DNA of 21,425 nt. Source: an uncultured Mucispirillum sp. (GTDB lineage: Bacteria > Chrysiogenota > Deferribacteres > Deferribacterales > Mucispirillaceae). Below the pieces are notes generated by a model. It saw only the letters and a list, made by a program, of their open reading frames with translations. It was not told the origin of the DNA and ran no database searches. Below, piece after piece: positions 1,833 through 20,748 of the stretch. The position numbers and the translations under genes were made by a program. The DNA is taken from positions 1 through 21,425 of the forward strand of contig CAMEZN010000001.1 in assembly GCA_945947845.1 (NCBI GenBank), given 5' to 3'. Numbering within the stretch: the first letter of the stretch is position 1; each line of letters starts with the position of its first letter.

Positions 1833-2657
1833 ATGAGCAAAATAAAAAATGTATACTTTGCACATATTACTAATGAAACAGGTGACGAAACAGGTAACAT
1901 AATAATAGACACAATTAATACAGGGAATATACAGGATAATTTTTTAGAAATTCAAGGTTCTAGATATTTCTCAAGAATTTATGTTAGAAATAATACTAAT
2001 TTTATTAAATTTTATAAGTTACGAGATGATGCACCTATGATTTTATATAACGATGGTGCGGATCATGAGTTAGAAATAAATTCAGGGGATATTGCTGAAA
2101 TCACTTATTTTTTAATATTTGGTCAATATATAGCTATATTACGAACAGGATATAGTCCAAATATTTCTAATTTTTTACCATATATAAGACAGTTATATGT
2201 AAATAAATATCATACAACTATTTTAGATGAACATTTAAAGAATAGTATAGTAGAATTATATGATAATGAAGTAATTAACGCCTTACACTCTTTATCTTTA
2301 AAAAAATTTAATATTCAGATAGGATTAATACAAGATGTAGTTATTGATGATGAAATTGATGCATATTTCAGAGATGATATACGGAGGGCTGTAAATGATG
2401 AGATGTTCTCTATAAGTTTTGGTATGGAGGCTTCGAGTAATCTTTCTAACAGCATAAAAAATTCTATTATTAGATTAATACCTTTTTTGAGAAAAGGAGA
2501 GGTAATTATGCTTGATAATAATGAAAAAATAAAGTATAATCTTATAAATCATAAAATCAAATATGAACATAGATTAGTAAATAATGAAACTGTTAATCTA
2601 AACTATGATGATATACTATTTGCTGCTAAAGAATGGTTTATTGATAACATGGTATAA
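1833..2657 (+). CDS. RexA-like superinfection exclusion protein (distant)
   Basis: A 274-aa soluble protein without signal or membrane segment. Lambda RexA is about the same length (279 aa), and from memory several blocks line up: an early FLEIQGSRYFSRIYV against RexA HHLQVGSNYLYIHKI; YFLIFGQYIAILRTGYSPN against FLFVEGDTIGFARTVFGPT; and a C-terminal EHRLVNNETVNLNYDDI against EHYLSEKGHLSAPLNKV. RexA is the intracellular sensor that activates the RexB channel when another phage infects. The next gene is a four-TM protein, and the pair lies downstream of the repressor as in lambda. AAAGGAG precedes the start. Identity is low, so this is a structural-pattern call; an unrelated two-gene defence pair is the alternative. 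Confidence 0.55.
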   Translation: MSKIKNVYFAHITNETGDETGNIIIDTINTGNIQDNFLEIQGSRYFSRIYVRNNTNFIKFYKLRDDAPMILYNDGADHELEINSGDIAEITYFLIFGQYIAILRTGYSPNISNFLPYIRQLYVNKYHTTILDEHLKNSIVELYDNEVINALHSLSLKKFNIQIGLIQDVVIDDEIDAYFRDDIRRAVNDEMFSISFGMEASSNLSNSIKNSIIRLIPFLRKGEVIMLDNNEKIKYNLINHKIKYEHRLVNNETVNLNYDDILFAAKEWFIDNMV

Positions 2658-2667
2658 GGATATGGAT

Positions 2668-3177
2668 ATGGCAACTGATAACACAAAAACTAATAAAGAA
2701 AAAAATAAAACACATAAAAAGGTAGTTAAGAGATTTGCTGGATATATTTTATCTTCATTGATAATAACTGGCTCATTTGTTTATTTGTTTATATTGTTAG
2801 AAAGCAAGACTAATATCTCGCCTGATTTTGAAGAAATGCGAAAAAATCTTTTTAGTATAGCTGTTACTTTTTCTGTTGGTATACTAGGTTTTTTAATTAC
2901 TGCATTAGCAATAATAGTATCATTTTTTGATAATCAAATAATGCAAAAGTTTAATCAAACAGAAGGACTTGATAATTTAATAACTACTTTTAAGTATGCT
3001 TTTGCAAGTCTTTTTTTTACAATTATTATGTTAATTACATCTACAATTACAGAGAAATATACTTATATGTTTGTATCAATAATTTTATTTTGTTTGCTTT
3101 TTAACATTCAATCTGTTTATAGATGTATAAATGTTATATTTATCATTATTAAAAATACTGCTAAAAAACCTCAATAG
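2668..3177 (+). CDS. RexB-like four-TM membrane protein
   Basis: A 169-aa protein with a basic, Lys-rich cytoplasmic N-terminus (1-23) and four hydrophobic segments at about 25-44, 62-86, 108-127 and 132-160. Lambda RexB (144 aa) is also a four-TM inner-membrane protein, and the GILGFLITALAIIV helix resembles its TMIAILIAALTFLIG helix by eye. The AAGGA ribosome site overlaps the stop codon of the preceding gene and fits the ATG at 2668 (7-base gap) better than that at 2662. The gene pair is thus coupled. If the RexA-like call is right, this would be the ion channel that depolarises the infected cell; otherwise it is an unassigned membrane partner. Confidence 0.55.
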   Translation: MATDNTKTNKEKNKTHKKVVKRFAGYILSSLIITGSFVYLFILLESKTNISPDFEEMRKNLFSIAVTFSVGILGFLITALAIIVSFFDNQIMQKFNQTEGLDNLITTFKYAFASLFFTIIMLITSTITEKYTYMFVSIILFCLLFNIQSVYRCINVIFIIIKNTAKKPQ

Positions 3178-3232
3178 TTTTCTTATTAATTTCTTCAAAT
3201 ATTTTTGATATTTTTTATTCTATACCCTTTTC

Positions 3233-3290
3233 TATAATAAATATTAATAATACCCTTTATCTGTAATTACCCTATTTAAACATATATAAT
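3233..3290 (+). promoter_or_regulatory. Late promoter repeat R, copy 1
   Basis: One of four related sites. It has an AT-rich box AAATATTAATAATA, then TTATCTGTA, and a TATAAT at 3285-3290. The CTG of the middle box is 24 bases before the TATAAT, the same as in copies 3 and 4. There is no TTGACA-like -35. Transcription from about 3297 would enter structured element F3 and then the endolysin gene. Confidence 0.65.
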
Positions 3291-3302
3291 CAGCTTATGA
3301 AA

Positions 3303-3427
3303 AATGGTATCGCCTTTTTATTTTATACTGTGTTGTTTAAAATTTAGCTTGGTCATTTACTTATTTATGTAAACTTCCATCGCTAAATTTTAAGCCGCCT
3401 TGTCTAAAATAAAATTTTAATACCATT
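3303..3427 (-). repeat. Structured element F, copy 3 (minus strand)
   Basis: A 125-nt nested hairpin between the rexB-like gene and the endolysin. Helices: AATGGTAT (3303) with ATACCATT (3420); TTTTATTTTA (3316) with TAAAATAAAA (3405); TTAAAATTTAGC (3337) with GCTAAATTTTAA (3382); TTTAC (3356) with GTAAA (3369). Read on the minus strand it shares TTAGACAAG, GGAAGTTTACA, GTAAATGA and AGTATAAAATAAAAAG with the two plus-strand copies (4892-5010, 14446-14566). The helix arms differ from those copies but stay complementary. Function unknown. It forms the leader of the endolysin transcript if promoter R1 is used. Confidence 0.8.
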
Positions 3428-3446: not shown

Positions 3447-3815
3447 ATGCCAAAATTATCTGCAAAAAGTCAAGCAAAATTAAATACCTGCCATAGCGAC
3501 TTAATAAGGTTAATAGAAGCTGTAGCAGAGACTGAGAAATGTGCTGTTATATGTGGCTTCCGTGGCAGGTATGAACAGGAACAAGCATACCGCGAAGGAA
3601 AAAGCAAAGCTAAGTTCGGACAATCAAAACATAATCTAAAACCTAGTATGGCATGCGATATAGTGCCGCTGCCACTTGACTGGGACAATATTCCTGCATT
3701 TGAAAGGCTTGGTGAAAAAATTATGGCAAAAGCAAAAGAGCTGGGAATAAATATATGCTGGGGAAGAGATTTTACAAATTTAAAAGATTATCCGCATTTT
3801 GAACTTATAGGGTGA
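3447..3815 (+). CDS. Endolysin, L-alanyl-D-glutamate-type peptidase (M15)
   Basis: A 122-aa zinc peptidase of the VanY/M15C family used by phages to cut the peptide stem of peptidoglycan. The expected motifs are in order: GFRGRYEQEQAYREGKSK (37-54), the zinc-ligand segment SKHNLKPSMACDIVP with His62 and Asp71, a tryptophan before the last loop, and DYPHFEL with the third ligand His117. The length equals a single-domain endolysin, with no separate wall-binding domain. There is no signal peptide, so a holin is needed; none is obvious beside it. AAGGAG precedes the ATG. Its stop codon lies inside the first hairpin of structured element S, and the spanin genes follow. Confidence 0.9.
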   Translation: MPKLSAKSQAKLNTCHSDLIRLIEAVAETEKCAVICGFRGRYEQEQAYREGKSKAKFGQSKHNLKPSMACDIVPLPLDWDNIPAFERLGEKIMAKAKELGINICWGRDFTNLKDYPHFELIG

Positions 3816-3918
3816 GCAGGCTCCCCCTATACTACCCCCACAATGCAAAAGTAATAAAATTCACCATTTTATTACTTTCAGCAGAATAAAATTTTGGATA
3901 CACGCTCCAAAATTTTAT
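3810..3918 (+). repeat. Structured element S, copy 1
   Basis: Three hairpins. S0 is GGGTGAG, loop CAGG, CTCCCCC (3810-3827) and includes the endolysin stop. After a pyrimidine-rich run and AATGCAAAA, stem 1 is 13 perfect pairs (3848-3860 with 3866-3878) closed by loop TCACC. Stem 2 is 13 perfect pairs (3886-3898 with 3906-3918) closed by TACACGC. A conserved TATTAATG box follows. Three further copies with different stems and the same loops are at 7722, 14329 and 19441. Confidence 0.85.
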
Positions 3919-3953
3919 AACAGGTATTAATGGCGGATAAAGGAATTATTAAG

Positions 3954-4664
3954 ATGAATATTACACAATTAAGTAAATATGTAATTATTTTTCTTTTTAC
4001 AGTTTTAGTTGTGCTTTCTGTGCTGCTTAGCATTTATGCAGCACAAAACAAGCAGCTTATGCAAGAAAATACAAGACTTACTGAAATGGTAGAGTTAAGA
4101 GATGCTGCTATTACTGAAATAGATAAAAATATTGCAGCATTGCAGCAGCAGGTATTGGAAGCTGAAAGTATATGTAATGAAAGATTAAAAGCAAGAGAGA
4201 ATTTATTGACATTTTTAAGTATTGAGCCTGCTTATGATGTTGGTAAAAATGGGATTTTTTTCCCGCAACTTCCAGCCTGTGCTGTTTCTGATTCCTCCCT
4301 GTTCGGTCGGGAAACAGGCAGCCGTCGCTGGGAAACGCTCCCCTCCTTTGATATAAATGCACTAGGCTCAAAAGCTGGGGCGGAAGACCGCACCGCCCCA
4401 GTACAGCCAAAGGTGATAAGTTATGAAAAAAGTAATATTGCTATTAAAAGTAACAACTGGGCGGGGAACTCCAAAGCCGTCCCCCGTCCCAACCACCCCC
4501 GCTTTAAAGGACAAGTTCCGCAGAAGTGTGATTCTGCTACACTTGATTTAAATAATAAGGTGGTGAGTGATGAAGTTATTAGTAAAAATAAAAGTGATTA
4601 TGCTGTTAATAGTATTAACAGTTATTGGGTGCAGTTCACACTCGCAGGTGATAGTAAAAAATAA
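3954..4664 (+). CDS. i-spanin (Rz-like) with inserted palindromes
   Basis: A 236-aa protein. Residues 9-29 form one membrane segment and about 32-75 a coiled coil (NKQLMQENTRLTEMVE, then a repeat ending KARENLL), the plan of an inner-membrane spanin that spans the periplasm. Lambda Rz is 153 aa. The extra length comes from GC-rich palindromic DNA at about 4255-4510, which reads as low-complexity sequence such as SLFGRETGSRRWETLP and SKAGAEDRTAPVQ. AAAGGA before the ATG at 3954 supports this start; the upstream ATG at 3930 belongs to a box conserved in element S. The end overlaps the o-spanin gene in another frame, as in Rz/Rz1. Confidence 0.75.
   Translation: MNITQLSKYVIIFLFTVLVVLSVLLSIYAAQNKQLMQENTRLTEMVELRDAAITEIDKNIAALQQQVLEAESICNERLKARENLLTFLSIEPAYDVGKNGIFFPQLPACAVSDSSLFGRETGSRRWETLPSFDINALGSKAGAEDRTAPVQPKVISYEKSNIAIKSNNWAGNSKAVPRPNHPRFKGQVPQKCDSATLDLNNKVVSDEVISKNKSDYAVNSINSYWVQFTLAGDSKK
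4286..4313 (-). repeat. GC-rich palindromic repeat inside the spanin gene
   Basis: This 28-base block matches the reverse complement of 17103-17130 at 27 of 28 positions. It is the loop of a larger inverted repeat in which CTGTTTC and GAAACAG, and CCAGC and GCTGG, flank it. It is read in frame in the spanin gene as SDSSLFGRET. Related, more diverged copies lie in the 14198-14281 inverted repeat. Confidence 0.8.
4375..4401. repeat. GC-rich hairpin inside the spanin gene
   Basis: CTGGGGCGG and CCGCCCCAG form a perfect nine-pair hairpin with a nine-base loop. A second GC-rich imperfect hairpin (GGGCGGGGA with TCCCCCGTCCC) follows at about 4459-4491. Both contrast sharply with the AT-rich surroundings. 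Confidence 0.75.
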
Positions 4665-4891: not shown

Positions 4892-5010
4892 GGTTATAAG
4901 ATTTTTTGATTAGACAAGACAGACGGAAATTTTTATGAAGGAGTTTATAAATAATAAATGACTGAATAAAAATTTGCGGATAACGAAGTATAAGCAAAAA
5001 AGATATAACC
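4892..5010 (+). repeat. Structured element F, copy 1
   Basis: A 119-nt element of four nested helices: P1 GGTTATA (4892) with TATAACC (5004); P2 TTTTTTG (4902) with CAAAAAA (4995); P3 AAATTTTTAT (4927) with ATAAAAATTT (4966); P4 TTTAT with ATAAA. Between P1 and P2 lie AGA and GA on opposite sides. The large internal loop carries TTAGACAAGACAGACGG and GGATAACGAAGTATAA, nearly the same in copy 2. It ends 27 bases before the start of a 33-aa membrane peptide gene. The promoter is not evident. Confidence 0.85.
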
Positions 5011-7721: not shown

Positions 7722-7826
7722 GGGGACAGGTCCCCTTTCTACCTTTCCCCTAATGCAAAATTTTTATATTCACCATATAAAAATTTCATAGGGATAAAAA
7801 TACCGATACACGCTCGTTATTTTTAT
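7722..7826 (+). repeat. Structured element S, copy 2
   Basis: S0 is GGGGA, loop CAGG, TCCCC (7722-7735). After TTTCCCCTAATGCAAAA, stem 1 has 12 perfect pairs (7758-7769 with 7775-7786) and loop TCACC; stem 2 has 13 positions with one mismatch (7794-7806 with 7814-7826) and loop TACACGC, identical to copy 1. TATAATCACTATTAATGAAGG follows in part, before the portal gene. It fills most of the gap between terminase and portal. Confidence 0.85.
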
Positions 7827-7875
7827 AATCACTATTAATGAAGGAAAAATAATTATTAATATATTAGGAGTCAAA

Positions 7876-10136: not shown

Positions 10137-10202
10137 TTAAAATCAAAATTTTAAAATATAGATTTTCCATTATAAACTCATTAAAAAATACTAAGTAGTT
10201 AT

Positions 10203-10257
10203 TTAATAAATATTAATAATATTCCTTATCTGTATATACTATCCAACCTAATATAGT
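10203..10257 (+). promoter_or_regulatory. Late promoter repeat R, copy 2
   Basis: TAATAAATATTAATAATATT, then CCTTATCTGTATATACTATCC in part, then TATAGT at 10252-10257. Its box-to-TATA spacing is 22, two less than in the other copies. The MuF gene begins nine bases after the TATAGT, so the transcript would be almost leaderless. Confidence 0.65.
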
Positions 10258-10265
10258 ATCAAACT

Positions 10266-11327
10266 ATGGAATTAAAAGAACTGCAAGATAAACTCAACAG
10301 AAAACATGTAAAAGTAAAAATGCCAAAAATCAGAGCTGAAGCTTATGCTGCTGCATATGCTAAAATGTTAAAAGATTTTACAGATGATGTTGTAGAAAAT
10401 TTTAGCAGTTTAGTTATGGCTATTTTTGAAGCAACAAAAATAGATACTGCTGAACTTGTTTCTGATAATGAAAGCAGTATTGTAATAGATGCTGCTGGTG
10501 ATTTTGAGTTCTGGGATAAATTTTTAGAAGATAATAAAAAAGAAATAAGAAAAAATGCAGGGAAAAAAGGCAGAGAAGCAAACCCATGGAAAGAAATGCT
10601 AAAAATAATAGGAGCAGAAATTACTGCAAAATATCCAAGCAATAAAAAAGAGCCTGTTGATTTTACATCTACACTATCATCACTCTTTGATTACTACTCT
10701 GCAAAAGCTGAACTTTTAACTAAAAACTGGAGTAATGAAGAGCTAAGTAATTTATATAGATATGTTTATGGCAGCTATAAAAAAGAGTTCCCTAACCTTT
10801 CTATCTCGGGCGAGTATTATGAAAGAATAATGCAAGCAGTAGTAAGTGAAAATTTAGCATTAATAAAAAGCATACCTGAACATGTTTTAAAAGATATGCA
10901 GATAACATTATCACAAGGCATTATCTCTGGTAATCAAAAAGAATTAATAAAAAGTTTAAAAAGAATAAAAGGTGTTAATAAAGATAGAGCTGTATTTATT
11001 GCTCGTGACCAGATGCACAAAGCAGCTGAAAGTTTTAAACAAGTTCAAAATGTAGCACTGGGTATTGAATACTATGAGTGGCTGACTGCTGATGATGAAA
11101 GAGTTTCAGATGGAATTGGCGGACATAAACAAAATAATCATAGAATTTTTAAATATAGCAGCAATGAAGCAATCATTAATTATAGCTCCAAAAGAGGTAT
11201 GTATTATGGAAAACCAGGAGACAGACCGAACTGCCGCTGTATTGCTGTTGGTGTGATACCTGATACAAACGAAGAAATAAAAAAAAGTCCAGATGGTTAT
11301 GGTTATATATTAGTTAAGAAAAAATAA
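10266..11327 (+). CDS. MuF-like minor head protein
   Basis: A 353-aa minor capsid (head morphogenesis) protein. The helical N-terminal two thirds ends in a domain of the MuF/SPP1 gp7 family (about 225-335): KDRAVFIARDQMHKAAE, YYEWLTADDERVSD, a His-rich stretch, GKPGDRPNCRCIAVGV with the Cys pair near 323 and 325. Such proteins bind the portal and are thought to enter the host with DNA. Many carry C-terminal toxins; here none is present, the toxin being on the portal instead. The start has no ribosome site, and TATAGT of promoter R2 lies nine bases upstream; leaderless translation is likely. Confidence 0.8.
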   Translation: MELKELQDKLNRKHVKVKMPKIRAEAYAAAYAKMLKDFTDDVVENFSSLVMAIFEATKIDTAELVSDNESSIVIDAAGDFEFWDKFLEDNKKEIRKNAGKKGREANPWKEMLKIIGAEITAKYPSNKKEPVDFTSTLSSLFDYYSAKAELLTKNWSNEELSNLYRYVYGSYKKEFPNLSISGEYYERIMQAVVSENLALIKSIPEHVLKDMQITLSQGIISGNQKELIKSLKRIKGVNKDRAVFIARDQMHKAAESFKQVQNVALGIEYYEWLTADDERVSDGIGGHKQNNHRIFKYSSNEAIINYSSKRGMYYGKPGDRPNCRCIAVGVIPDTNEEIKKSPDGYGYILVKKK

Positions 11328-13113: not shown

Positions 13114-14166
13114 ATGAGTAGAACAATCATTACACAAAATGAATTAAAGCAGTATCAAGCTGCTGGTATTTTTAATGGTATAAAAACTATGGATGGCGGG
13201 TTTGGTGGACTTACCACTCCAAATGTTAATATGCCTGCGGGTATTCTTACACAATTATCACAACATATAGTTTCGATTATTACTAGAAAAAGAACCGCAG
13301 ATGAAGTAATTGGCAGGAGAATGAAGCTGCTGGATTTTGAACAGCAAGATTTTTTAATGCCACTTATTGAAGGTAAAGGAGAAACATCAGATTATTCTGA
13401 TGTAGGTAATGCTCCAATAGTTGGTATGAACCCAACATATATCTATACAGGGCATAAAAGATTTTCTGTAAATGTAGTGAATGGCAGTTTAAAAAATGCT
13501 CAGCTTGCACAAGCTCGTATAAATGGTGAAGCATATAATATGAGCACTGGGCTTGAAAGACTTGCAATAACATTTAATGATATTGCATTTACTGGTGTGC
13601 CAGGAATCCCAGAGGGTTCAAAATATCCTATTTATGGAGTTTTAAATAACCCTGATTTGCCAGCTTATCAAGCAGCAGAAACTACAACAGCGGATGCAAC
13701 ATTTGAGAAATTTTATAAAGATGTTGTAGGTTTGATTGAGGAAGTTATATCCAGAGCTCAAGGGCATGTTTCACCTAATAGTAAGATGGTTCTTGCAATA
13801 TCTAACAGAAGAAATGGCTTATTATCATTAATAAATCAGATAGGTAATAAATCTATTAAAGCAGCTATTGCAGAAAGCTATCCTAATTTAACATGGGTAC
13901 TTGCTCCAGAGCTTGATGGAGCATATACTGGCGGACTTGATGTAATGTATTTACGTGCTGAAAGTTTAGATGAAACAGAAGTTAAAGAGAAAGGTTTAGA
14001 AACAGATTCTCTTGTTGATAGTGCTATCTTAGGCTTTTCAGAATTAGCTCGTGCAGGAGCTGTTGAAGTACATTCTAACTATACATTACAAACAATATCT
14101 TCTGGCTCTCTGGGTACAATTATTCCAAAACCTTATATGTTTGGAAGAAGATATTTTGCAAGTTAA
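13114..14166 (+). CDS. Major capsid protein (DUF2184-like)
   Basis: A 350-aa protein in the major capsid position. It has the DUF2184 features: an N-terminal arm, ITRKRTADEVIGRRMKLLDFEQQDFLMPLIE, a G-rich segment with YSDVGNAPIVGMNPTY, and a beta-rich domain with NDIAFTGVPGIPEG and LTWVLAPELDGAY. The end EVHSNYTLQTISSGSLGTI leads to a short tail. Length is as in that HK97-fold family. It has a strong GGAG ribosome site. A large inverted repeat and element S follow directly, which might stabilise or end this abundant message. Confidence 0.8.
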   Translation: MSRTIITQNELKQYQAAGIFNGIKTMDGGFGGLTTPNVNMPAGILTQLSQHIVSIITRKRTADEVIGRRMKLLDFEQQDFLMPLIEGKGETSDYSDVGNAPIVGMNPTYIYTGHKRFSVNVVNGSLKNAQLAQARINGEAYNMSTGLERLAITFNDIAFTGVPGIPEGSKYPIYGVLNNPDLPAYQAAETTTADATFEKFYKDVVGLIEEVISRAQGHVSPNSKMVLAISNRRNGLLSLINQIGNKSIKAAIAESYPNLTWVLAPELDGAYTGGLDVMYLRAESLDETEVKEKGLETDSLVDSAILGFSELARAGAVEVHSNYTLQTISSGSLGTIIPKPYMFGRRYFAS

Positions 14167-14320
14167 GAAAGGGGAGCGATTTTTGCGACGCGAGCATTTC
14201 CCGACGAATAGGAAGGAAGTAGAAATGCGAAGCTGGAACCCAGCCAGATTTTCTATTTCTTCCTTATTCAGTCAGGAAAATCTGTCCTCACAAAAAACGT
14301 TCGCCCCTTTCTTACTTTCC
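14165..14320 (+). repeat. Long inverted repeat with diverged palindromic repeats
   Basis: AAGAAAGGGG just after the capsid stop pairs with CCCCTTTCTT before 14320, taking the place of the short S0 hairpin of the other S copies. Inside lies a second imperfect inverted repeat in which 14198-14228 (TTTCCCGACGAATAGGAAGG) pairs with about 14251-14281, both diverged relatives of the repeat at 17103. The gap 14167-14590 holds this, element S copy 3 and element F copy 2, and no gene. Confidence 0.7.
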
Positions 14321-14328
14321 CCTAATGC

Positions 14329-14400
14329 AAAACTTACCAAGCTCACCGCTTGATAAGTTTTAGCAGAATAAAAATCACGATACAAGCTCGTGATTTTTAT
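14329..14400 (+). repeat. Structured element S, copy 3
   Basis: After CCCCTAATGCAAAA, stem 1 pairs 14 positions (14329-14342 with 14348-14361, one mismatch) around loop TCACC. Stem 2 pairs 13 perfect positions (14368-14380 with 14388-14400) around TACAAGC. GCAGAATAAAA between them is shared with copy 1. TATAAT follows at the 3' side. Confidence 0.85.
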
Positions 14401-14445
14401 AATAGAATTATTTATAAATAAAAAATAAATTAATCAGCAGATGTA

Positions 14446-14566
14446 GACAATAAGATTTTTATTTTAGACGAGACAGACGGCTTTTTTAAAAACGGAGTTT
14501 ACAATGTTAGTAAATGAGTATTTTAAAAAAGACGGATAACAAAGTATAAAATAAAAAGATATTGTC
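14446..14566 (+). repeat. Structured element F, copy 2
   Basis: Same plan as copy 1 with changed but complementary arms: P1 GACAATA with TATTGTC (14446, 14560); P2 TTTTTAT with ATAAAAA (14456, 14551); P3 CTTTTTTAAAA with TTTTAAAAAAG (14481, 14521); P4 TTTAC with GTAAA. Constant loops: AGA/GA, TTAGACGAGACAGACGG, GGAGTTTACAA, GTAAATGA and GGATAACAAAGTATAA. It lies 24 bases before the next start codon and 45 bases after element S copy 3. Confidence 0.85.
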
Positions 14567-14590: not shown

Positions 14591-15034
14591 ATGCCAGCAA
14601 TTATATTTAAAGCACCAAGCTGTTACTTAAAAACAACAGACAAAGGGAAATTTTTATTAAAAGGTAACTATGAAATCAATATTATAGATGAAGCAACTTT
14701 AAAAGATTTAAAACAATGCAATCCAGAATTTGATGTGTGGGTTCAAAAAGGCTTTTTAACAATCAATGAGAAAGAAGATAATGTTAAAGCAGATGGTCTT
14801 TTAATGCAGGAAAAACAAGCTGAACAAAAATTAAAAGATGCTGAAAAGCAGGCAAAAGAAATTATTGATGCAGCTTATGAAGAAGCTGAAAAAATAAAAA
14901 AAGAAGCAGCAAGCATTACTGTAACAAGCCAGCAAGGCGAAGCAGCACCAGCAGAGCAGCAAGCGGCACAACCAGCTGAACAACAGCAGCAGGAACAACC
15001 ACAAACAGAAGAAAAAAGTGGTAAAAAGAAATAA
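14591..15034 (+). CDS. Unassigned head-region protein with Gln/Ala-rich tail
   Basis: A 147-aa protein I do not recognise. Residues 1-60 look folded (IIFKAPSCYLKTTDKGKF, ending DVWVQKGFLTI), 60-105 form a charged coiled coil (KQAEQKLKDAEKQAKEIIDAAYEEAEK), and 110-147 are disordered and rich in Gln, Ala, Pro and Glu, ending in a lysine cluster. It sits between the capsid and the head-tail connector, where DUF2184-type phages often have a small unassigned structural gene. AAGGAG precedes the start. Its leader consists of element F copy 2. Confidence 0.6.
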   Translation: MPAIIFKAPSCYLKTTDKGKFLLKGNYEINIIDEATLKDLKQCNPEFDVWVQKGFLTINEKEDNVKADGLLMQEKQAEQKLKDAEKQAKEIIDAAYEEAEKIKKEAASITVTSQQGEAAPAEQQAAQPAEQQQQEQPQTEEKSGKKK

Positions 15035-15058: not shown

Positions 15059-15439
15059 ATGACAAGCGAAGAATTTAAATTATATTTTTTAAAAAGGTTT
15101 CCAAAGTTTGAAATAGTGCAAGATAAGATTGATACATATTATAATCAATCATTATGCAGATTTCCAGTATTGAAAATAGATAACTGTTATAATACTGATG
15201 CTGCATGTTTAGCAGTAGCTCATTATTTAGTAGTTTATGAGATGCCAGAAGATGCTACTGCAGGCAGCAGCGGCAATGGTGGTGGTATAATCAACTCTGC
15301 ATCTGTGGGTGATGTATCTGTTGGTATGCAGGCAAAGCCTATAAATGATATGTTTGAAGATTTTATGGCTTCAACTGTATATGGAAGAGACTTTTTAGCA
15401 TGGCTTGCCAGCGTTGGTGGTATTACCTTGATAAATTAA
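15059..15439 (+). CDS. Head-tail connector (DUF4054-like)
   Basis: A 126-aa protein with the DUF4054 pattern: an N-terminal FKLYFLKRFPKF helix, a YNTDAACLAVAHYLVVYEM helix, a Gly/Ser-rich loop leading to SASVGDVSVGMQ, and the end FMASTVYGRDFLAWLASVGG. Family members form the adaptor ring below the portal. The ribosome site (AAGG, some bases upstream) is weak. It follows the unassigned head gene by 24 bases. Confidence 0.75.
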   Translation: MTSEEFKLYFLKRFPKFEIVQDKIDTYYNQSLCRFPVLKIDNCYNTDAACLAVAHYLVVYEMPEDATAGSSGNGGGIINSASVGDVSVGMQAKPINDMFEDFMASTVYGRDFLAWLASVGGITLIN

Positions 15440-16369: not shown

Positions 16370-16380
16370 TACTACCACTA

Positions 16381-16438
16381 TATAATAAATATTAATAATA
16401 TACCTTAACTGTATCTATCTATTCCAATTATCTATAAT
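16381..16438 (+). promoter_or_regulatory. Late promoter repeat R, copy 3
   Basis: TATAATAAATATTAATAATA, CTTAACTGTATCTATCTATT and TATAAT at 16433-16438, with the CTG 24 bases before. Starts the unit for 16506-20600 genes. The leader between it and the GTG start holds a dispersed palindromic repeat (16455-16490). Confidence 0.7.
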
Positions 16439-16454
16439 CAGTTTATGAATTATT

Positions 16455-16490
16455 AGATACTTCGGGGCTGAAAGCCCACTCAGTATGACA
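16455..16490 (+). repeat. Dispersed palindromic repeat, copy 3
   Basis: AGATACTTCGGGGCTGAAAG to CAGTATGACA, with GGGCT pairing to AGCCC inside. It lies in the leader between promoter R3 and the following gene. Confidence 0.75.
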
Positions 16491-16923: not shown

Positions 16924-17556
16924 ATGAATGAAATGATTAAATCAATATATGAAGCTGTGGCAGATATAGTTACACCATTTAAAACTTTATATCCATATCA
17001 AGATATAGAGGCAGATGTTGATAATGGTGTTGTTACTTTTGCACCAGTGAAAATTACTAACTTAACACTTGCTGGCGAGCGTTTTTTGCAAGGACTGCCA
17101 AATTCCCGACCGAATAGGGAGGAATCAGAATTTGCACAGGCTGGAGAAGAGCTACAGGCTGATGGAAGTTTGTTAGTAGATAGTGTTGCTAGAATATGCT
17201 TTCAAGTAGATATTTATAAAAGTATTAGCTGGAATGATAAAGATATATCTGCTTTTGATATGGCAGAAAAATTACAGATATATTTAAAAAGTTCGCAGGC
17301 AAGAGATGTATTTTTTAATAATTATAAATATGAGCTTATGCCTGTATGGTCTGATATAACTTTTCAAGCAGATTTTAATACATACAAAAAATGGGTGCAG
17401 ATAGCACAGTTTGAGATGTTTATAACAAAAATGAGTTCTGTAATACTAACAGATACACCATTGAAAAATATTAAAATAGAGATAAGCGAAGTTGGGACCT
17501 TAAAGGATAATACAGCTTATAATAGTATGATGAATAAATTTTTAAAAACAAATTAA
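16924..17556 (+). CDS. Tail terminator/neck protein (LIC_12616-like)
   Basis: A 210-aa protein with the plan of the LIC_12616 group in DUF3383 myophages: an N-terminal NEMIKSIYEAVADIV helix, RICFQVDIYKSISWNDKDISAFDMAEKLQIYL, and a later ARDVFFNNYKYELMPVWSD and KWVQIAQFEMFIT strand pair. It likely closes the tail tube or joins it to the neck. Residues 60-69 (around PNSRPNREESEF) are encoded by a palindromic repeat that matches one in the spanin gene, so this loop tolerates insertion. AAAGGA precedes the ATG. The sheath gene follows with a good ribosome site. Confidence 0.65.
   Translation: MNEMIKSIYEAVADIVTPFKTLYPYQDIEADVDNGVVTFAPVKITNLTLAGERFLQGLPNSRPNREESEFAQAGEELQADGSLLVDSVARICFQVDIYKSISWNDKDISAFDMAEKLQIYLKSSQARDVFFNNYKYELMPVWSDITFQADFNTYKKWVQIAQFEMFITKMSSVILTDTPLKNIKIEISEVGTLKDNTAYNSMMNKFLKTN
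17103..17130 (+). repeat. Palindromic repeat inserted in the tail terminator gene
   Basis: TTCCCGACCGAATAGGGAGG onward, 28 bases, matching the reverse complement of 4286-4313 at 27 positions. Read in frame; no stop introduced. Confidence 0.8.
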
Positions 17557-19440: not shown

Positions 19441-19553
19441 GGAAGGGGGAATACCTTCCCCCTTTCCACCTTCCCCCTAATGCAAAATTTTATTGTTCAC
19501 CACAATAAAATTTCATATGGATAAAAACTCCCGCACATGTCGGTAGTTTTTAT
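19441..19553 (+). repeat. Structured element S, copy 4
   Basis: S0 is GGAAGGGGG with CCCCCTTTCC. After TTCCCCCTAATGCAAAA, stem 1 has 12 perfect pairs (19485-19496 with 19502-19513) and loop TCACC. Stem 2 has 13 positions with one mismatch (19521-19533 with 19541-19553), with a changed loop CACATGT. TATAATTAGTATTAATGAAGG in part follows, before the tube gene. Confidence 0.85.
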
Positions 19554-19611
19554 AATTAGTATTAATGAAGGTGTATAAAACTTAAAATGATTTTAAAAAA
19601 GGAGATATTAT

Positions 19612-20640: not shown

Positions 20641-20658
20641 TCATCTCACACATTAAAA

Positions 20659-20716
20659 TATAATAAAAATTAATAATATGTCTTATCTGTATCTATCTAT
20701 CCTGTATATATATAAT
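20659..20716 (+). promoter_or_regulatory. Late promoter repeat R, copy 4
   Basis: TATAATAAAAATTAATAATA, CTTATCTGTATCTATCTATC and TATAAT at 20711-20716, with CTG 24 bases upstream of it. The tape measure gene starts 33 bases later with an AAGGGGC ribosome site. Confidence 0.7.
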
Positions 20717-20748
20717 CACAATATAAATAATAAAATAAGGGGCTTATT

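Follow-up and report, generated by a model that had tools for sequence, protein, structure and literature searches.

The window analysed here, which is the whole of contig G000:C1 (21425 bases) of a 1.93-Mb draft Mucispirillum genome, contains three copies of a structured element that we call element F. The question raised by this locus is what such an element is, and what has been conserved in it. A protein of this assembly taken to be AtpB has 84–97% identity to its six closest relatives, all of them from Mucispirillum records. Judging from its genes, the contig represents a Mu-like prophage: its large terminase subunit is 50% identical to the Escherichia phage PhiKM protein and 45% to the Mu protein, and the PHROGs names obtained among the 10 ORFs scanned were regulator, endolysin, terminase, portal, head morphogenesis, major head and tail sheath. 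The three copies are 119–125 nt in length, have a GC content of 0.26–0.28 and each lie between ORFs. They are given below with the E-values of their matches to R1, a covariance model made from the three window copies.

4892–5010, + strand: copy F1, folded strand +, E 3.3e-21; its layout is P1 (GGTTATA/TATAACC), AGA/GA loop, P2, L2 loop, P3, GA/GA tandem and P4 (GTTTAT/ATAAAT)
14446–14566, + strand: copy F2, P1 GACAATA/TATTGTC, E 2.5e-24; the major head protein gene (13114–14166) lies on one side and an ORF starting at 14591 on the other
3303–3427, − strand: copy F3, folded strand −, E 5.8e-19; its neighbours are an ORF at 2605–3177 and an endolysin-like ORF at 3447–3815

The fold of element F is maintained by compensatory change

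In RNA folding, each window copy gives one long interrupted hairpin, with z-scores of −8.30 (F1), −5.59 (F2) and −8.41 (F3). For each copy none of 200 shuffles was as stable, the stretches folded being a few bases longer than the copies themselves. When the three copies are aligned, both sides change with the pair kept in 16 of 42 predicted pairs. These results confirm the proposal of an earlier note, made from the sequence of the window, that it holds three hairpins of about 120 nt with constant loops and compensating stems. The constancy of the loop sequences stands for F1 and F2. In F3 it does not: this copy has GGAAGTTTACA where the others have GGAGTTTAYA and CAGTATAA where F1 and F2 read AAGTATAA, and its internal loop between P1 and P2 departs from the AGA/GA form.

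The further expectation that a conserved fold would covary in wider homologues is borne out. Among 83 Mucispirillum copies (80 distinct rows), double-sided changes occur at 34 of 40 pairs, and 88.6% of cells pair; column shuffles give 64.1% (0/500 reach the observed level) and slid controls no more than 54.8%. The observed value was reached by none of the 500 shuffles on any of five measures, but these counts lean towards the structure, because the alignment was fitted to the structure derived from the three window copies. A cross-phylum alignment (A6; 35 rows, 34 distinct) has double changes at 36 of 40 pairs, again with 0/500 shuffles. The constant parts of the element are internal, namely (A/T)AGGC at the L2 loop in most copies, AAC opposite L2, and a constant GGAG before P4 and TGA after it, which frame this helix with tandem G-A. 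In 24 copies from genome G049, P1 is very different from copy to copy with its pairing kept; entropy rises to 1.9 bits in P1 columns and 1.6 in P3 columns, and the AGGCGGC and GTACATGAGGA columns are invariant. Conservation in element F thus concerns the fold of a single strand and a small number of loop bases, and not sequence or terminal inverted repeats.

Element F is dispersed in the genus and the phylum

R1, which the earlier note had suggested building, was searched on host genomes and finds further copies. The genome from which the window comes has seven (E up to 1), including the three in the window; the other four are a tandem pair after an aminotransferase-like gene and a tandem pair between atpB-like and atpE-like genes, these genes being named by eye. 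All 10 Mucispirillum genomes carry 4 to 12 copies each (E up to 0.1), in host loci as well as in prophage regions, and the idea of a phage-specific element accordingly does not hold. Several copies have flanks matching the window prophage (loci L045, L052, L053 and L074) and others lie in tandem arrays. We also observed head-to-tail F-like arrays with units 123–127 nt apart and a core variant, GTGTAAATGA, in L169 (G008:C41) and L079 (G006:C49).

A second covariance model, R2, was made from the 83 Mucispirillum copies; the E-values of these models are rough, the calibration having been shortened. Fifty genomes of the phylum (Deferribacterota), some of them incomplete, were scanned, and other phyla were reached through viral, plasmid and E. 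coli collections. R2 matches were found in 16 of the 50 genomes, comprising the 10 of Mucispirillum and six others: G026, G040, G045, G046, G047 (family f6) and G049 (family f4, 37 matches). The remaining 34 have no R2 match at E up to 0.001, under stricter filters that lose weak matches. G044, of genus g12, has no R2 match, unlike its sister genomes; carriers and non-carriers among sister genomes are as expected of a mobile repeat.

Many copies lie at gene ends, and sites are filled or empty

To describe placement we used mechanically called ORFs of at least 70 aa around the 83 Mucispirillum copies and 47 copies from other genera. In 36/83 Mucispirillum and 19/47 other copies, the folded strand has its 3′ end between −19 and +8 nt relative to the stop codon of an opposite-strand gene; a stop codon is equally close to the 5′ end in 0/83 and 3/47. 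Positions 8–30 nt before a same-strand start codon account for 6/83 and 8/47, and positions 9–70 nt from a stop for 4/83 and 8/47; 6/83 Mucispirillum copies are at contig ends, and 31/83 and 12/47 fall in no placement class. Among the copies located at a gene boundary, 36 of 42 from Mucispirillum and 19 of 27 from other genera have their folded strand antisense to the neighbouring gene.

The dinucleotide TA is found within 0–3 nt of both ends in 33 of 80 Mucispirillum copies, compared with 14.6 expected from nearby flanks. It occurs at both ends in 15 of the 24 G049 copies (2.7 expected) and is hardly enriched in g12/g13 (3 of 21; 1.1 expected). The F3 site is filled in the window and empty in the related loci L053 and L074. 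Conversely, the end of a 126-aa ORF of the window (15059–15439) is empty, and the end of what by eye appears to be the same gene (140 aa) is filled in L045 and L047; this comparison agrees with insertion at the stop codon's TA and repetition of TA behind the element. At the F3 site and at L045:18043, both compared as empty/filled pairs, no clear TA duplication was found. The 3′ end of the terminase gene has a repeat of another family, E, in the window and element F in G008 and G002. Since P1 differs between G049 copies, we considered whether it might be derived from the target, and rejected this on the ground that at the F3 site the whole of P1 lies, by eye, inside the insert.

Other repeats accompany element F in the window. 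Family E (3837–3923, 7732–7844, 14319–14405 and 19459–19571) combines variable stems with constant sequences, namely AATGCAAAA, TTCACC or CTCACC, and a GATACACGCTC-like loop; for three of its four copies the start is no more than about 25 nt from a stop codon. A third repeat, also palindromic (CCCGACCGAATAGGGAGG..), is found within open reading frames at 4271–4328 and 17088–17145 and around 7400 in L048. A relative of it, identified by eye, is nested in the F hairpin between the L2 halves at L053:15773–15974 and L049:18690–18907, which recalls the Rickettsia palindromic elements. Lastly, an 80-nt AT-rich sequence (AATAAATATTAATAATA..CTTATCTGTA) is present in four direct copies (3232–3311, 10201–10280, 16380–16459 and 20658–20737; 64–79% identity to the reference). 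All four lie at a prophage gene start or upstream of one, and are possible promoter or regulator sites.

Element F resembles the ERIC repeats of E. coli

The core of the element recalls the two ERIC-PCR primers, which suggested a relation to ERIC. The joined 44-nt ERIC core is matched in 5373 of 5426 E. coli genomes. R2 matches the ERIC copies in all five E. coli loci searched (three distinct sites) at E 4.8e-5 to 1.5e-4; R1, with only the three window copies, misses them. As a blind test, R2 and a wide model made without ERIC (R3), neither of which was trained on ERIC, were run over 200 kb of E. coli K-12 MG1655. R2 identified copies at ahpC–ahpF (45.0 bits, E 1e-6), cusC–cusF (32.4 bits, E 6.3e-4) and pgk–fbaA (29.9 bits, E 2.2e-3), its sole other match up to E 10 being one of 69 nt (22.5 bits, E 0.093). 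R3 found the same three alone, with 47.3, 27.0 and 27.0 bits (E 8.7e-11, 1.1e-4 and 1.1e-4). We name these copies ERIC on the strength of the 44-nt core, because the record table does not annotate any of them as such; the core is exact in the cusC and pgk copies and has three substitutions in the ahpC copy. At the 24 columns in which at least 85% of 23 non-ERIC rows of a chosen set have one base, the three ERICs agree at 22, 18 and 18, compared with 6.4 to 6.5 expected from composition. The match is strong throughout in the ahpC copy alone: in the cusC and pgk copies, two bases of the AGG loop are gapped by R3, and many P3 pairs of the cusC and ybhJ ERICs are broken in the match to R2. Of the K-12 copies, one starts 3 nt downstream of the ahpC stop codon, one 9 nt downstream of that of cusC, and one ends 29 nt upstream of the fbaA start, a placement much like both Mucispirillum placement classes.

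Element F and ERIC (also IRU or RU-1) have in common a length of about 120–127 nt, a single long interrupted hairpin, intergenic location and repetition within the genome. They share the core GGAG-YTTAC..GTAAR-TGA, the loop pieces AAGGC and AACGC, placement at stops or before starts and, in Mucispirillum and G049, TA ends; TA termini with target duplication are listed for ERIC/IRU/RU-1 in Table 1 of PMC2229807. Unlike ERIC, element F is AT-rich, has stem sequences that differ by eye and weak TA ends in g12/g13, and is hosted by Deferribacterota and a Mu-like prophage. PMC10969869 gives ERIC-type repeats for Enterobacteriaceae and Vibrionaceae, and in PMC2759123 Vibrio is the most distant group in which an RU-1f-type sequence was found. 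Our literature searches, mostly aimed at other questions, found no ERIC-type repeats outside the gammaproteobacteria.

Outside the phylum, R2 matches IMG/VR contigs L259 (GC 0.36) and L255 (GC 0.67) and, with 45.3 bits, Halomonas. Repeats on Pseudomonas plasmids have blastn matches to L255 and Halomonas and weak R2 scores (25.5 and 18.3 bits). Two related GC-rich virus contigs, G050 and G051 (L332 and L331), P2-like by ORF reading, carry an ERIC-type core at partly differing gene junctions, and R2 gives there only short core matches near E 0.02. Under the stricter filters of a whole-record R2 scan, a match (E up to 0.1) was obtained for 7 of 10 records, but for neither of the two Pseudomonas plasmids nor for G055, the record to which L255 belongs. 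The pattern AGTGTACN{4,10}GTACATGA occurs at a minimum of 80 IMG/VR loci, and among the 80 listed two match R2 at E up to 0.05. For the pattern GGAGTTTACAN{3,10}GTAAATGAC, one of eight loci (L114) has a strong R2 match, and in the others R2 matches the core or a short stretch only (E 0.66–0.75).

It could be argued that an unrelated palindromic repeat, YPAL-like or another MITE, converged on an ERIC-like core without common descent. Plain sequence search shows no relation, R1 misses ERIC, the P3 fit of the cusC and ybhJ copies is poor and the g12/g13 termini lack the TA ends of ERIC; moreover, stem-loop repeat families are many, with a final set of 92 in PMC2267715. Against convergence, the three K-12 ERICs are the best matches of two ERIC-free models in 200 kb, the core agrees at 18–22 of 24 columns, both placement classes recur in K-12, and intermediate forms are present in Halomonas and in GC-rich virus contigs. 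We therefore regard convergence as unlikely.

The K-12 results, together with the agreement of conserved columns and placements, are the reason for which we file element F as ERIC-related. We do not call it ERIC in the narrow sense, which is defined by a blast match to the 127-bp consensus; F2 has no match in phages or plasmids by plain blastn. The view of the earlier note that these are RNAs of no known class has not been borne out; the element is a dispersed palindromic repeat with a fold and core loops that match E. coli K-12 ERIC. Our main conclusion, to which we attach a probability of roughly 0.75, is that element F belongs, as a divergent member, to the ERIC/IRU/RU-1 group of non-autonomous mobile repeats, and that this palindromic repeat has become distributed over gene ends of Mucispirillum and its Mu-like prophages.

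One strand carries the selected fold

Alignments made with a model lean towards the model's own structure. For the strand test, hairpin arms were aligned with a scoring equal for all mismatches, in a set of 70 sequences of which 50 were from Mucispirillum and only six from G049. Rows outside 105–130 nt, rows at least 92% alike and rows without the anchor motifs were left out, and a mismatch was counted as isolated when it had two Watson–Crick pairs on each side. In these 70 sequences there were 70 isolated A-G mismatches, 24 G-T, 11 A-A, 5 A-C, 5 G-G, 2 T-T and no C-T. The bias is thus marked both for A-G vs C-T (p 1.7e-21) and for G-T vs A-C (p 5.5e-4), and this excess of A-G and G-T on one strand indicates that the fold of that strand is selected. 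The earlier note was also right in that G-A mismatches do occur on the modelled strand.

Model-based counts with redundant rows removed agree in direction with the strand-symmetric test. In Mucispirillum, G-T vs A-C is 56 vs 33 overall (p 0.019), 26 vs 15 near stops (p 0.12) and 4 vs 1 before starts (p 0.38), and in the other genera the corresponding values are 64 vs 24 (p 2.4e-5), 39 vs 12 (p 0.0002) and 10 vs 2 (p 0.039). Further counts of 55 vs 26 and 41 vs 8 rest on model-fitted alignments, and a count of 21 vs 19 that included the L2 loop was replaced by the strand-symmetric one. As a separate observation, the folded strand is the strand of negative GC skew in 15 of 20 loci (L170–L189; G026, G007 and G045), with four against and one tie; this bias may merely reflect gene direction, which is a confounder.

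Strong covariation, and an excess of G-T (G-U) over A-C on one strand, would also be expected of a functional RNA of host and phages, regulatory or stand-alone, with a fold kept because the RNA works in place. In line with this, several Mucispirillum genomes have a copy at the atpB–atpE and aminotransferase sites (genes identified by eye), and ERIC in Yersinia mRNA affects stability, with an orientation-dependent effect on decay, according to PMC2229807 and PMC10969869. The orientation of element F to genes, however, is inconstant, being opposite to both neighbours in 50/83 Mucispirillum copies and the same as both in 13/83. Unrelated copies have flanks in which we see no likeness by eye, related prophages differ in the copies that they carry, and Rfam 15 has no match overlapping the window copies up to E 5 or in nine other F-bearing loci up to E 0.1. 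Since the folded strand is antisense at most gene-boundary copies, there are simpler readings than a cis-acting or stand-alone RNA, which we consider improbable.

That the paired changes result from template switching between the arms of the palindrome (quasipalindrome correction), with the fold itself unselected, is already disfavoured and seems to us very unlikely: palindromes are prone to template switching, and the G049 copies differ much in P1 and are still paired, but such a process is strand-blind, yet the mismatches are strand-biased (A-G 70 vs C-T 0; G-T 24 vs A-C 5) and bases of the unpaired loops rank with the best conserved across the range from Mucispirillum to E. coli.

Comparison with other repeat classes and candidate mobilisers

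Integron attC sites, which have attC boxes, form a folded bottom-strand hairpin just 3′ of a stop codon, as does element F; unlike attC, the P1 ends of element F vary freely. YPAL repeats are close to stop codons. YPAL (RU-2) of Yersinia is described in PMC2229807, like element F, as a palindromic miniature insertion with filled and empty sites, whose targets span or adjoin dyad symmetry; its length of about 168 bp and variable target duplications of 3–26 bp set it apart by description. REP or BIME repeats with RAYT (Y1) transposases are also hairpin-forming and lie between genes, and differ in their size of 20–40 bp (PMC3733652). The intrastrand-triplex repeats of PMC4666352 have a different motif and were rejected.

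A mobiliser common to the carriers was not found among the three Pfam families tested. RVT_1 (PF00078) is present in 0/10 Mucispirillum genomes (57–98% complete), and a group II intron or retron was rejected on this absence from the genus. Y1_Tnp (PF01797) is present in 6/10 Mucispirillum genomes and in G040. It was not found in the five F-rich genomes G049, G026, G045, G046 and G047, and REP/RAYT was rejected for this reason. DDE_3 (PF13358), which we take as the mark of an IS630-type transposase, occurs in 3/50 genomes of the phylum (G017, G024 and G032), all without an F match, and in 0/16 F-bearing genomes, several of which are incomplete. IS630 was rejected as the mobiliser because DDE_3 was not found in F-bearing Deferribacterota. 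An IS630 gene adjoins an F-like repeat on a Pseudomonas plasmid.

Implications for the movement of ERIC-related repeats

Element F is dispersed, occurs at sites that are filled in some loci and empty in others, and has one preferred strand in which the hairpin is kept by compensatory change. For an ERIC-related mobile repeat, we suggest that a trans-acting enzyme recognises the folded strand through its internal loops, probably as single-stranded DNA, and that this candidate enzyme would insert the strand at TA. If the target were the TA of a TAA or TAG stop codon and the element started with A or G, the stop codon would be kept, which would explain the stop-codon positions of the copies. Once inserted, the hairpin would lie in mRNA and, by analogy with ERIC in Yersinia, may change transcript stability. 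The terminal stem of a classical MITE is the transposase-binding repeat. Given that P1 is free in G049 and the internal columns are invariant, it is difficult to see how element F could be recognised through the sequence of its terminal repeats.

A wider proposal, which we put forward tentatively and with the odds somewhat against it, is that ERIC is one branch of a cross-phylum superfamily identified by its folded DNA strand and not by sequence, in which a trans factor would read the tandem G-A and L2 loops, terminal repeats would drift while remaining paired, and phages would carry the elements between hosts. If this were true, the family would represent a structure-addressed mobile element without recognisable transposase ends.

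ERIC repeats are in wide use for fingerprinting. Transposases that would recognise and move them are only hypothesised in PMC2229807. A deeply diverged branch shows what is conserved, so that the question of the ERIC mobiliser becomes testable. Element F also provides a model for finding relatives of ERIC in other phyla, and points to phages as their carriers.
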